The notes under the pieces: model-generated
What the model saw: only the letters and a program-made list of their open reading frames with translations
Database searches by the model: none
Told to the model about the DNA's origin: nothing
Made by a program: the position numbers and the translations under genes
Shown here: positions 13,833 to 62,258 of the stretch, one piece after another
Position numbering within the stretch: position 1 is the stretch's first letter
Layout of the letters: every line of letters starts with the position of its first letter
Assembly (NCBI RefSeq): GCF_004214835.1
Contig: NZ_PIQJ01000001.1
Location: 1,054,001-1,118,000, forward strand
Length of the DNA: 64,000 nt
Source: Pseudidiomarina tainanensis
GTDB taxonomy: Bacteria; Pseudomonadota; Gammaproteobacteria; Enterobacterales; Alteromonadaceae
Direction of reading: 5' to 3'

Positions 13833-13862
13833 CGATATTAGTTGTTAGATATTGGATATTAG
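13833..13862 (+). repeat. Heptad repeat arm, copy A (after lysS)
   Basis: Beginning nine bases after the lysS stop: CG followed by four 7-bp units, ATATTAG, TTGTTAG, ATATTGG, ATATTAG. The same 30-bp block, with one unit changed, follows the patatin-like gene at 48199 and a three-unit version follows tyrR at 62163. Here it sits just upstream of the lysS terminator. Unlike the copy at 48199 there is no matching inverted arm beyond the terminator; a GATTAAC array stands there instead. Confidence 0.85.
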
Positions 13863-13867
13863 AGGTA

Positions 13868-13897
13868 GCCCGGCGTTATACGCCGGGTTATTTTTTT
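13868..13897 (+). terminator. Intrinsic terminator of lysS
   Basis: Stem CCCGGCG (13869-13875), loop TTATA, CGCCGGG (13881-13887), followed by TTA and seven T. It ends the xerD-to-lysS transcription direction and faces the convergent transsulfuration-family gene. Confidence 0.9.
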
Positions 13898-13900
13898 AAC

Positions 13901-13942
13901 GATTAACGATTAACGATTAACGATTAACGATTAACGATTAAC
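13901..13942. repeat. Six perfect tandem copies of GATTAAC
   Basis: A simple-sequence array of six identical 7-bp units, with a partial seventh (TTAAC) running back into the T-tract of the lysS terminator. Read on the minus strand it is (GTTAATC)6, and the stop codon of the minus-strand gene (13938-13940) lies inside its first unit, so copy-number change would lengthen only the 3' untranslated region. The 7-bp period matches the heptads of the arm at 13833. Confidence 0.95.
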
Positions 13943-15086
13943 GCATTGCTTGCAATAAATCGGCGAGTAATTCGTGTTTGTCCTCAATACCGGCTGATAA
14001 ACGTAACAAATCAGGCGGGCAGGGCGTCCCTTCGCCTTCAACGCTGGCGCGATGTTCAATTAAGCTTTCCACGCCACCAAGTGACGTTGCGCGTTTCCAT
14101 AATTTGGTGTTGGCGGCCAAATGCACCGCTGCTTGCTCACCACCTTTAACGCGAATCGAAAGCATGCCACCGAAGCCGCCGTGCATTTGTTTGCGAGCGA
14201 CGTTATGGCCTGCAAAACTTGGTAAGCCTGGGTACAAGACTTCGAGAATTTGTGGATGTTGTTGCAGTTGCTCAGCTAGAAACATCGCGTTGCTACAACT
14301 TTCACGGACCCGCAAGTGCATGGTGCGCATGCCGCGTAATAACTGCGCGGCGTCGTGTGGGCTTGGAACTGCGCCACCTTGCGCTCGTACCGCACGAATA
14401 CGTTGCCAATAGGCTGAATCTTGTTTCGTTACTAACGCACCCGCGATAACATCAGAGTGACCATTGAGATACTTCGTGGCACTATGCATGACAATATCTG
14501 CGCCAATGGCCAGCGGTTGGGTTAATAGTGGTGTGGCACAGGTTGAATCAACCGCAACGGCGGCGCCTGCTGATTTCGCTAGCTCACTGATAGCGGCAAT
14601 ATCGCTGATTGTCCACATCGGGTTGCCTGGGGTTTCTAACCAGACCAGCTTGGTTTGTTTAGGTTTGATCGCCGCGGCAACTGCATTCAAATCAGTCATG
14701 TCGACAAAGTCGATTCGTAAACCCCAGTCAGTCGCAAAATTTAGTAACCAGTTACGCAGCGCCCAATACATCACTATAGGTGCAACAACATGATCGCCGG
14801 GCTTTAAGCCTAAAAATACTGCGGTTGCAGCAGCCATGCCCGAACCAAATAATAGCGCTTGTTCGCCACCCTCGAGTTGGCATAATAACTGCTCAACTGG
14901 TTTGTAGGTTGGATTGTCAGCGCGCGAATAAACATTGCCGGTTGGATAAGTATTATCGGCGCCACGAATGTAGGTGGTGGCAACATGAATCGGCAATACA
15001 ACGCCTTGGCTTTCTTGGTCTATTTTACCAAGCGCTTGCGCGAGAGCGGTGGCAGAGCTATATGGATAGGCTTTGTTGTTCGTCAT
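13938..15086 (-). CDS. PLP-dependent Cys/Met-metabolism (transsulfuration family) enzyme
   Basis: 382 residues of the cystathionine gamma-synthase / beta-lyase / methionine gamma-lyase family. The PLP-binding Lys is in HSATKYLNGHSD (about residue 202); the upstream segment YSRADNPTYKPVEQLL and the GSGMAAATAV phosphate-binding loop are typical. At the position where most members have Tyr-Gly, this protein has VMYWAL, keeping Tyr but replacing Gly by Trp, and it lacks the Tyr-Gly-Cys of methionine gamma-lyase. That points to a cystathionine synthase or lyase, but substrate cannot be assigned. Start ATG at 15086 is preferred; a GTG at 15098 adds four residues. Its end overlaps the GATTAAC array. 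Confidence 0.85.
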   Translation of the reverse strand: MTNNKAYPYSSATALAQALGKIDQESQGVVLPIHVATTYIRGADNTYPTGNVYSRADNPTYKPVEQLLCQLEGGEQALLFGSGMAAATAVFLGLKPGDHVVAPIVMYWALRNWLLNFATDWGLRIDFVDMTDLNAVAAAIKPKQTKLVWLETPGNPMWTISDIAAISELAKSAGAAVAVDSTCATPLLTQPLAIGADIVMHSATKYLNGHSDVIAGALVTKQDSAYWQRIRAVRAQGGAVPSPHDAAQLLRGMRTMHLRVRESCSNAMFLAEQLQQHPQILEVLYPGLPSFAGHNVARKQMHGGFGGMLSIRVKGGEQAAVHLAANTKLWKRATSLGGVESLIEHRASVEGEGTPCPPDLLRLSAGIEDKHELLADLLQAMR

Positions 15087-48188: not shown

Positions 48189-48198
48189 AAGGCAAATA

Positions 48199-48303
48199 CG
48201 ATATTAGCTATTAGATATTGGATATTAGACAGAGAAAAGGCGCCTTTCGGCGCCTTTTGTTTTGGGTTTTTAGCTAATATCCAATATCTAATAGCTATTA
48301 TCG
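48199..48303. repeat. Heptad inverted-repeat element, copy B (complete)
   Basis: Left arm 48199-48228: CG, then heptads ATATTAG, CTATTAG, ATATTGG, ATATTAG. Right arm 48274-48303 is its reverse complement with a single mismatch. Between the arms is an intrinsic terminator. The left arm starts ten bases after the patatin-like gene's stop; the right arm, read on minus, starts nine bases after the putP stop. The 105-bp unit is thus fitted symmetrically between two convergent genes. Related copies lie at 13833 and 62163. Confidence 0.9.
48235..48261. terminator. Bidirectional terminator inside heptad element B
   Basis: AAAAGGCGCC (48235-48244), loop TTTC, GGCGCCTTTT (48249-48258), then GTTTT. Ten-base-pair stem with A-tract on one side and T-tract on the other, serving the convergent patatin-like gene and putP. 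Confidence 0.92.
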
Positions 48304-48312
48304 CTCTCGCAC

Positions 48313-49836
48313 TTATGAGTGAATAACTTTTTCCATTTCATCGAAAGTTTCTTGTAAGTTGCTGGTTGGCTCAGCTGTTAACAAGCTAACCACCACAACC
48401 GCTAAACTACAAACGATAAAGCCTGGAATAATTTCATAAACGACGCTGCTTAATGCTGTACCATCGGCTAATACTGGCGCATAAATCCAGAACAGTACGG
48501 TAGCGGCACCTAACACCATTCCAGCAAGTGCGCCGTGGCGGTTCATACGCTTCCAGAACAGGCTTAGTATGATAACTGGTCCGAAGGCTGCACCGAATCC
48601 TGCCCAAGCGTTAGCTACTAGGCCTAAAATGGTGTTGTTTGGATCCCATGCAAGTGCAATGGCTACTAACGAGACCACCAATACCGAAATACGACCGACA
48701 GTAACAAGCTCTCGGTCGCTCGCGTCGCGACGTAAAAAGGCCTTGTAGAAGTCCTCAGTCAACGAGCTTGATGTCACCAATAGTTGTGATGAAATGGTGC
48801 TCATAATCGCGGCCAAAATAGCGGCTAACAGGAAACCTGAAATTAGCGGATGGAATAAGAACTGCGAGAAAATAATAAAGATAGTTTCCGCGTCCTTCAG
48901 TTGCATTTTGGTTTCTGCGACGTACGCAATACCAACAAAACCGGTCACCATGGCACCGATAATTGAAACGAGCATCCAGCTAATACCAATGCGGCGAGCC
49001 GTTGGAATGTCTTTCACTGAACGAATGGCCATAAAGCGCACAATAATATGTGGCTGACCAAAGTAACCTAGACCCCACGCCAACAAAGAAATAATACCGA
49101 GAAAGGATAGCTGATTGAGCATTGGATCGGCAATCGACGCATCTCGGAAGAACTCAAGGAAGTCTGGGTTAATTGATTCCACCGTGCTTGTTACCTGTGT
49201 CATACCGCCCAAATCGAAAATTGCGACGATAGGCACGAGCACAAGTGCGACAAACATGATGCAGCCTTGCACAAAGTCAGTCATAGATACTGCGAGAAAG
49301 CCACCAAATAGGGTGTAGGCACAAACCACACCAGCAGTGACCCAAAGCCCTAAGCTGTAATCAAGGCCGAACGCTGAGCTCGCAAAAAGCTTACCACCGG
49401 CAACCAAACTGGCCGAGGTATAAAGCGTAAAGAAAATGATGATAACGACTGACGAGAACACGCGTAACACCCGCGTTTTATCATCAAACCGATTCGCGAA
49501 GTAATCCGGAATCGTAATCGAATCGTTGGCAACTTCGGTGTAAGTACGTAATCGCGGCGCTACAATCAAATAGTTTAAATAGGCGCCGATTAATAAACCA
49601 ACGGCTATCCACAATTGTGAAACGCCGGAAACATAAATTGCACCGGGAAGACCCATGAGCATCCAGCCACTCATGTCCGATGCACCCGCCGAAAGTGCAG
49701 TGACACCGGGACCTAAAGCTCTTCCGCCAAGCATGTAGCCGGAAACATCATCGGTTGATTTTTTATAGGCATATAAACCAATGCCTAACATGACAATAAA
49801 ATAGAGTGCTAATGAAACGAGCGTACCTGTTTCCAA
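48313..49836 (-). CDS. putP: Sodium/proline symporter PutP
   Basis: A 507-residue SSS-family transporter with about 13 membrane helices. N-terminal GLYAYKKSTDDVSGYMLGGR and SAGASDMSGWMLMGLPGA (Ser and Asp of the sodium site) and the GYFGQPHIIVRFMAI segment are PutP-like. The start is TTG 49836, supported by AGGAG seven bases before it; that site overlaps the sapF stop, so putP is probably translated from the same message as the sap genes. Confidence 0.92.
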   Translation of the reverse strand: METGTLVSLALYFIVMLGIGLYAYKKSTDDVSGYMLGGRALGPGVTALSAGASDMSGWMLMGLPGAIYVSGVSQLWIAVGLLIGAYLNYLIVAPRLRTYTEVANDSITIPDYFANRFDDKTRVLRVFSSVVIIIFFTLYTSASLVAGGKLFASSAFGLDYSLGLWVTAGVVCAYTLFGGFLAVSMTDFVQGCIMFVALVLVPIVAIFDLGGMTQVTSTVESINPDFLEFFRDASIADPMLNQLSFLGIISLLAWGLGYFGQPHIIVRFMAIRSVKDIPTARRIGISWMLVSIIGAMVTGFVGIAYVAETKMQLKDAETIFIIFSQFLFHPLISGFLLAAILAAIMSTISSQLLVTSSSLTEDFYKAFLRRDASDRELVTVGRISVLVVSLVAIALAWDPNNTILGLVANAWAGFGAAFGPVIILSLFWKRMNRHGALAGMVLGAATVLFWIYAPVLADGTALSSVVYEIIPGFIVCSLAVVVVSLLTAEPTSNLQETFDEMEKVIHS

Positions 49837-62162: not shown

Positions 62163-62258
62163 CGATATTAGCTGTTGGATATTAGAGGGCGTCGATGAGG
62201 ATTCAATCCTTTTGGTTTCGGGTTTTTACGAATATCTAATATCTAAGAGCTAATAGCG
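62163..62258. repeat. Heptad inverted-repeat element, copy C (after tyrR)
   Basis: Left arm 62163-62185, starting nine bases after the tyrR stop: CG, ATATTAG, CTGTTGG, ATATTAG (one heptad fewer than copies A and B). Right arm 62231-62258, read on minus: CG, CTATTAG, CTCTTAG, ATATTAG, ATATT. Between them is a weak hairpin (AGGAT 62198-62202, ATCCT 62206-62210, then TTT), apparently the tyrR terminator. More diverged than copy B. Confidence 0.78.

Follow-up and report, generated by a model that had tools for sequence, protein, structure and literature searches.

The 105-bp feature at 48199-48303 of the window, the whole 64,000-nucleotide stretch of Pseudidiomarina tainanensis DNA that was analysed, is probably a short copy without a gene, belonging to a family of palindromic repeats that is coupled to the four-helix-bundle protein S23. 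This S23-coupled family is best read as related to the intervening sequences (IVS) of 23S rRNA genes. Within the genus, the presence of S23 goes with the abundance of 7-bp repeats (heptads), and S23 genes of distant bacteria are mostly flanked by heptad arrays, often in inverted orientation. The coupling is an association, from which we infer that S23 may drive mobilisation of the copies and that these may function in RNA. To our knowledge, S23 proteins form a common family without known function or catalytic activity. Comparisons with published work below draw on excerpts of the cited papers.

The element at the rssA-putP junction and its family

The feature consists of two 30-bp heptad arms, with one mismatch between them, inverted around a terminator with a 10-bp stem (Table 1), just as the preliminary description stated. 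The fixed spacing from stop codons reported there also stands: the CG that opens each arm lies 10 nt from the stop of the rssA-like patatin gene and 9 nt from that of putP, and the arms after lysS and tyrR keep a distance of 9 nt (gene names were assigned by NCBIfam). Measured against a 23S rRNA IVS, this copy has the terminal inverted-repeat stem, lies between protein genes and not in an rRNA gene, and holds no S23 gene, which its full-length relative in the same genome has. Terminator hairpins are visible by eye at the same junction in species of the genus without arms; the hairpin is therefore not part of the element, and the arms were probably added around a pre-existing terminator.

Within the window, a degenerate heptad-pair pattern (up to two mismatches) gives 17 matches against 4.7 expected, a few of them at unrelated sites, and 17 matches were reached in 0 of 100 shuffles. 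The copies described earlier after lysS and tyrR are arms as stated, but the inverted partner of the tyrR arm at 62229 had been overlooked, as had the heptad array (13896-13943) in which the gene facing lysS ends. The lysS junction holds this second heptad type, TTAATCG, besides ATATTAG, and its terminator is a GTAG-REP in form.

Table 1. Coordinates of the elements in the window and of the full-length element on contig C1 of the same genome
Feature	Position	Strand	Remark
Outer tail AAGGCAAATACG	48189-48200	+	between the rssA-like stop (TAA 48186-48188) and heptad 1
First arm, four heptads ATATTAG CTATTAG ATATTGG ATATTAG	48201-48228	+	48199-48228 with CG
Core, intrinsic-terminator hairpin AAAAGGCGCC TTTC GGCGCCTTTT	48229-48273	.	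10-bp stem
Second arm, inverted heptads ATAATAG CTATTAG ATATTGG ATATTAG	48274-48301	-	48274-48303 with CG
Outer tail	48302-48312	-	reaches the putP stop codon (48313-48315)
Lone ATATTAG arm after lysS, CG + four heptads	13833-13862	+	starts 9 nt past the stop
GTAG-REP-like hairpin GTAGCCCGGCG...CGCCGGG, then a T run	13865-13890	+	beside the lysS arm; by eye
About seven perfect TTAATCG heptads	13896-13943	-	array overlaps the stop codon of a PLP-enzyme gene that converges on lysS
Arm after tyrR, CG + three heptads	62163-62185	+	9 nt past the stop
Inverted partner of the tyrR arm, four heptads + CG	62229-62258	-
Full-length element, heptads	C1:649090-649117
Full-length element, S23 ORF	C1:about 649157-649513
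Full-length element, heptads	C1:649524-649551

Genome-wide counts bear out the suspicion of a dispersed, REP-like family beside the stop codons of unrelated genes. Over the five contigs (2.37 Mb) of the own genome, the heptad pair has 356 overlapping matches and its reversed control has none. Copies are thus many rather than only three, and orthologous loci occur both with and without the element rather than sharing conserved gene-specific arms. Two stretches totalling 804 kb, the window included, contain 119 arms, with controls of 0 in one Markov shuffle per stretch and 8 in reversed sequence. By the gene calls of a simple longest-ORF script, 114 of these arms are intergenic and 5 lie inside predicted ORFs. 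Exactly four units make up 83 of the 119, and neighbouring arms form 44 inward-facing, 8 direct and 0 outward pairs, the inward ones being 29 bp apart in 14 cases. A sense gene lies upstream of 57 arms; 26 of these start 11 or 12 nt past its stop and 17 more than 70 nt from it, some of the latter probably arising from genes that the simple caller missed. The share of junctions with arms is highest for convergent ones (17 of 47), compared with 38 of 264 for codirectional and 11 of 81 for divergent junctions.

The arms belong to a longer unit of about 41 bp, a half-element made of an 11-13-nt tail and four position-specific 7-bp repeats. Its consensus joins the tail AAANNCAANNRCG to ATATTAG-CTATTRG-ATATTRG-ATATTAG; among 70 four-unit arms selected for starting with CG, the consensus is AAARNCAARNRCG ATATTAG CTATTRG ATATTRG ATATTAG, with C opening unit 2 in 61. 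The consensus half-element barely folds (-2.5 kcal/mol) and, having no G runs, lacks G-quadruplex potential. Two inward-facing half-elements around a short core occupy gene junctions, most often right at stop codons, and at some sites half-elements stand in tandem with a period of 41 bp. One intergenic site (L288:4714-5003; C5:244.7-245.0 kb of the own genome) contains six tandem half-elements at this spacing and then a single arm in inverse orientation. The two stretches differ about threefold in how densely arms are placed, C1:340-740 kb having 89 and C1:894-1298 kb having 30. Placement near the replication terminus was considered and rejected, since GC skew flips near C1:1.196 Mb and the arms are denser elsewhere.

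The family shares 7-bp tandem units, intergenic position and a preference for four units with heptameric simple repeats of the GGGAATC type, and could in principle consist of microsatellites that grew as the polymerase slipped. Bacteria have an excess of heptamers, for which slippage has been proposed and no function was settled on (PMC4692102); there are also some long pure arrays. Slippage nevertheless sits poorly with units that differ by position, as the C of the second heptad does, with a conserved non-repeat tail, with the complete absence of outward pairs beside 44 inward ones, and with an identical unit at very many unlinked loci, all of which makes it a very improbable origin.

A four-heptad pattern finds at least 94 stretches across the genome collection, 80 of which were taken as loci. 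Among the matches listed are P. marina, P. woesei, P. donghaiensis, P. gelatinasegens, two MAGs and one Caldilineales scaffold, and the two-arm pattern is present in 8 of 26 genomes of the genus. The match on the scaffold binned as Caldilineales (L204:2861-2888) may reflect a binning error or a transfer; blastn gave no match between this scaffold and the G000 and G022 stretches compared. The literature search found no published account of intergenic repeats in Pseudidiomarina.

Gene-end slots stay filled while the repeat family changes

Comparison with the outgroup G021 shows the elements to be inserted at gene junctions: its gaps at eight element junctions are 5, 36, 1, -4, -29, 9, 165 and 3 bp, most of them close to zero, and the gap difference between G000 and G021 has a median of 106 bp at element junctions versus 0 at 58 element-free ones. 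One empty site, in P. gelatinasegens, leaves 5 bp between the stops against 107 in G000, with no target-site duplication seen at this single site; terminal inverted repeats, as in MITEs, are present. Genes have mostly kept their C-termini: among 575 orthologues, the overhang difference is 0 for 25 of the 31 that carry arms and for 492 of the other 544.

Between species, the slots stay filled and the family inside them (ATATTAG, TTATTCG or GTAG-REP) is exchanged, its identity being at chance. Across 194 orthologous gene ends, 37 of the 41 occupied in G000 are filled in the sister species G022, compared with 6 of the other 153 (Fisher p=6e-29). Among the 34 ends with heptads in both genomes, the family agrees at 14 and differs at 20, with about 13.5 agreements expected and with ATATTAG and TTATTCG as overlapping classes. 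Five slots read by eye in six species show the three families in changing order, with 28 of 30 cells readable and none empty, and swaps occur even among G011, G017 and G019, which are 88-90% identical in nucleotides over the stretch compared. With a further 80 loci, selected for carrying ATATTAG arms, 51 junctions are filled in both genomes, 4 in G000 alone, 3 in the other alone and 46 in neither. Too few elements for a comparison lie in the 37-42 kb that surround rssA in 22 genomes.

GTAG-REPs are present in 9 of 26 genomes of the genus, and in G011 some have a Y1 gene nearby (C9:392.2-393.8 kb). REPs lie near 36 gene ends and at 32 of these start right on the stop codon; TAG serves as the stop at 33 of the 36, compared with 180 of 1345 element-free ends; REPs that supply stop codons have been reported before (PMC3733652).

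Such exchange also suits a purely functional account, in which gene ends need an RNA hairpin as a 3'-end stabiliser, terminator or translation damper, selection keeps any palindrome that provides one, and S23 is irrelevant to function. Conserved occupancy with family identity at chance and the swaps of the six-species table favour this account, as does the strong folding of the intergenic regions of all three families (median z -6.2, -5.5 and -4.8 versus -1.8 without an element, against mononucleotide shuffles). REPs at most 15 nt from a stop are moreover reported to stall ribosomes (PMC12306157). Pairing within loci is hardly above that between loci, which goes against such selection: partner arms have a likeness of 0.849 versus 0.834 for random partners (p=0.008, 61 pairs), or 0.856 versus 0.851 in G000 alone (p=0.20). 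Stem pairing is thus not strongly maintained. The rssA-putP copy of G022 had hinted that the arms evolve in concert or compensate one another in pairing, an effect likewise too weak across the 61 pairs to be kept.

The orientation of the core is also independent of the genes, its T-rich side following them at 14 codirectional loci and opposing them at 12, with 2 undecided. Terminators, called by a simple scorer for GC-rich hairpins downstream of gene ends, stand in G000 at 5 of the 23 convergent ATATTAG ends and 2 of the 18 others, as opposed to 18 of 50 element-free convergent ends; the target preference for terminators that had been proposed earlier is accordingly not seen there. G022 has one at 1 of 12 other ATATTAG ends. 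Given how rare scored terminators are and how mixed the core orientation is, terminator targeting was dropped as a general rule, yet 3 of 4 convergent ATATTAG ends in G022 do have a terminator. The functional account, which leaves the S23 association unaccounted for, is unlikely to suffice alone; a functional slot and an S23-coupled family may both be true together.

The S23 gene in the genus and beyond

The link to S23 lies outside the window and was absent from the preliminary description. The own genome has a single S23 gene ("23S rRNA-intervening-sequence protein"; PF05635/TIGR02436), which is enclosed by an arm pair in a full-length element of 462 bp between outer heptad ends; in P. marina, a PF05635 gene lies inside an arm pair. 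In the search for a partner gene of the kind a MITE has in its cognate transposase, S23 is the one gene found between an arm pair, and the transposase searches covered Y1.

One S23 match per genome is found in 17 of 26 genomes of the genus, that of G011 being a fragment. The gene lies directly upstream of murJ in 13 of the 17 (flanks read by eye; murJ identified by Pfam in P. marina), and heptads are visible by eye on at least one side in 16, with G016 ambiguous. Most of these flanking heptads have a tail like AAAGTCAAGNRCG. Their units vary: ATATTAG in G000, G022 and G023, TTATTCG types in eight genomes, ATGTTTG in G004, TTGCTAG in G005, TTACTAG in G009, TTATTGG in G010 and a mixture in G002.

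Heptad matches, as overlapping hits of two patterns summed without subtracting the reversed control, number 15-519 in the 17 genomes with S23 versus 0-17 in the nine without (Mann-Whitney p=2.6e-5); one pattern has a control count almost equal to its matches in G010 and G025, and G004 and G005 are under-counted because their heptads differ from the two patterns. The TTATTCG pattern alone gives 0-336 with S23 versus 0-17 without (p=1.3e-4). G011, G017, G019 and G024 hold many ATATTAG matches though their resident S23 is flanked by TTATTCG types, so the matching of S23 and heptad is not one to one.

Two enzymes that might have taken the part of S23 show no such relation to the heptads. Reverse transcriptase, which could have made the heptads in the manner of a diversity-generating retroelement (DGR) with an Avd-like partner, was rejected for lack of correlation with S23: it is present in 4 of 17 genomes with S23 and 3 of 9 others, and it was not found in G000, G022 or G023. 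PF05635 has been noted to resemble the DGR protein Avd (PMC10053308), and one of two S23 proteins gave a weak Avd match. A REP- or REPIN-type element moved by a Y1 (RAYT) transposase would share with the feature its size, inverted halves and placement at stop codons, and GTAG-REPs occupy the same slots as the heptad elements. This origin is scarcely credible here, for the half-element, with its tail AAANNCAANNRCG and a fold of -2.5 kcal/mol, carries no GTAG/CGTC tag; Y1 occurs in 11 of 17 genomes with S23 and 8 of 9 without, showing no correlation; and no Y1 match was found in the heptad-rich G022, G023 (88% complete) and G024. RptR, reported to bind TAGCTA (PMC12255303), was considered as well.

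Genome mining beyond the genus extends the coupling of S23 to heptads. Of 369 Gammaproteobacteria sampled, 77 have an S23 match, 71 of them above the curated cut-off. At one array threshold for all three locus sets, 7-bp arrays lie on at least one side of 46 of 61 S23 loci: 11 of 16 in the genus (16 of its 17 loci, G023 being cut by a contig end), 24 of 29 in the class (the loci among the matches listed, besides the own) and 11 of 16 on plasmids (16 of 35 matching records). Such arrays occupy 71 of 122 flank windows versus 8 of 112 distal windows (p=8e-18), a value, uncorrected for phylogeny, that overstates independence because the loci are partly related, those of the genus being largely orthologous and some class and plasmid loci close relatives. 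Periods of 4, 5, 6, 9, 10 and 11 give no array in the flank windows, and period 8 gives three. Where arrays lie on both sides, the unit recurs in inverted orientation at 22 of 25 loci. The remaining 15 of 61 loci have no array at the threshold, and short heptads are visible by eye at 4 of the 5 threshold-negative class loci.

The plasmid matches are mostly cyanobacterial, with Nostoc supplying 15 of 35 records. Two cyanobacterial plasmid genes lie inside CRISPR loci, one between cas10 and a cmr3-family gene (L362) and one between cas6 and cas4 (L349). An S23-like gene of Gemmatirosa (L363) is flanked, by eye, by arrays of 8-bp period, and lag 8 appears in three plasmid flank windows. The flanking unit is dispersed in G182 (117 matches) and found only at the S23 locus in G194 (8 matches); the latter case, like the 15 loci without an array, counts against the S23-coupled reading. 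The only solved protein that S23 matches is XCC0516 (PDB 2GSC, E=1.6e-22). XCC is presumably the strain in which the GGGAATC heptamers of Xanthomonas were studied.

These loci also bear on whether S23 is merely a passenger in slots already decorated by heptads of other origin. Slots do accept other inserts, and the four clade genomes whose S23 flank is unlike their abundant ATATTAG family fit a passenger. Such a role is nonetheless decidedly improbable, as the presence and absence of S23 track heptads throughout the genus, distant lineages have S23-flanking arrays of different heptads, and the G194 array was found only at S23.

Relation to known systems and a proposed mechanism

Among published systems, the IVS of 23S rRNA genes come closest to the full-length element. 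In an IVS of 428-444 nt, a terminal stem of 28 bp is accompanied by heptameric repeats that stand immediately ahead of the S23p gene, which was judged probably not expressed in vivo; XCC0516 is the S23p of Xanthomonas campestris (PMC4990558). Both have terminal inverted repeats of about 28 bp, an S23-family gene inside, adjacent heptameric repeats and a stem-loop RNA. The Pseudidiomarina elements differ in lying between protein genes and in comprising one full-length and many short, gene-less copies. A link between S23 and heptads appears in the literature searched, which covers few subscription journals, only as an unconnected remark in PMC4990558.

The GGGAATC and GGGGA(C/T)T repeats of Xanthomonas and Nostoc resemble the family in their 7-bp units, four-unit preference, occurrence singly or in inverted pairs, position near stop codons on the coding strand, and gene context mostly kept in relatives (PMC4692102). 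In contrast, the Pseudidiomarina units are AT-rich, without G runs, and cannot form G-quadruplexes; since they share the layout of GGGAATC, the G-quadruplex explanation of the four-unit preference weighed in that paper fails for them. PMC4692102 uses none of the terms S23, four helix and intervening. The TAACTGA repeats of Beggiatoaceae are likewise dispersed intergenic heptamers of several lineages, but they are mostly direct repeats upstream of start codons, and the paper that describes them makes no mention of S23 (PMC4679880). REPINs and GTAG-REPs with their RAYT share inverted pairs, high copy number, placement near 3' ends and a repeat-flanked, single-copy partner gene. The heptad arms differ in lacking the GTAG/CGTC tag or a stable hairpin of their own, and the partner is a four-helix bundle in place of a Y1 transposase (PMC3116915; PMC3733652).

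Taken with the coupling, these likenesses suggest how the S23-linked family might work. S23 may recognise the heptads as putative binding sites. RAYT is thought to be needed for the spread or upkeep of REPINs, and S23 would be needed for those of the heptads in the same way. Copies would persist at sites that tolerate or profit from an RNA hairpin, as just past a stop codon or at the tips of rRNA helices, and different repeat families could replace one another in such slots. In mRNA, the element would fold, close to the edge of the ribosome at termination, into a long hairpin, which may tune the 3' end or be a putative target of RNase III.

A wider reading, which we hold only tentatively and as a whole, takes S23 to define widespread palindromic mobile or selfish elements without an encoded transposase or reverse transcriptase. 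S23 would set the 7-nt period and the heptad sequence, and one full-length copy would maintain the short ones. The rRNA IVS, the heptamers of Xanthomonas and Nostoc and the gene-end hairpins of Pseudidiomarina would then be one system, in which an exchange of S23 refills the slots with a new heptad, so that position is inherited and sequence rewritten.

Collectively, these findings give a concrete, testable context to the S23 or "four helix bundle protein" family and to heptamer repeats whose function had been left open (PMC4692102). Junctions with swapping palindromic families also offer a clean system for separating selection for 3'-end hairpins from insertion hot spots. Moreover, the findings lend support to a long-standing idea, cited in PMC4990558, that the IVS of rRNA was once a mobile element whose gene served its mobility.
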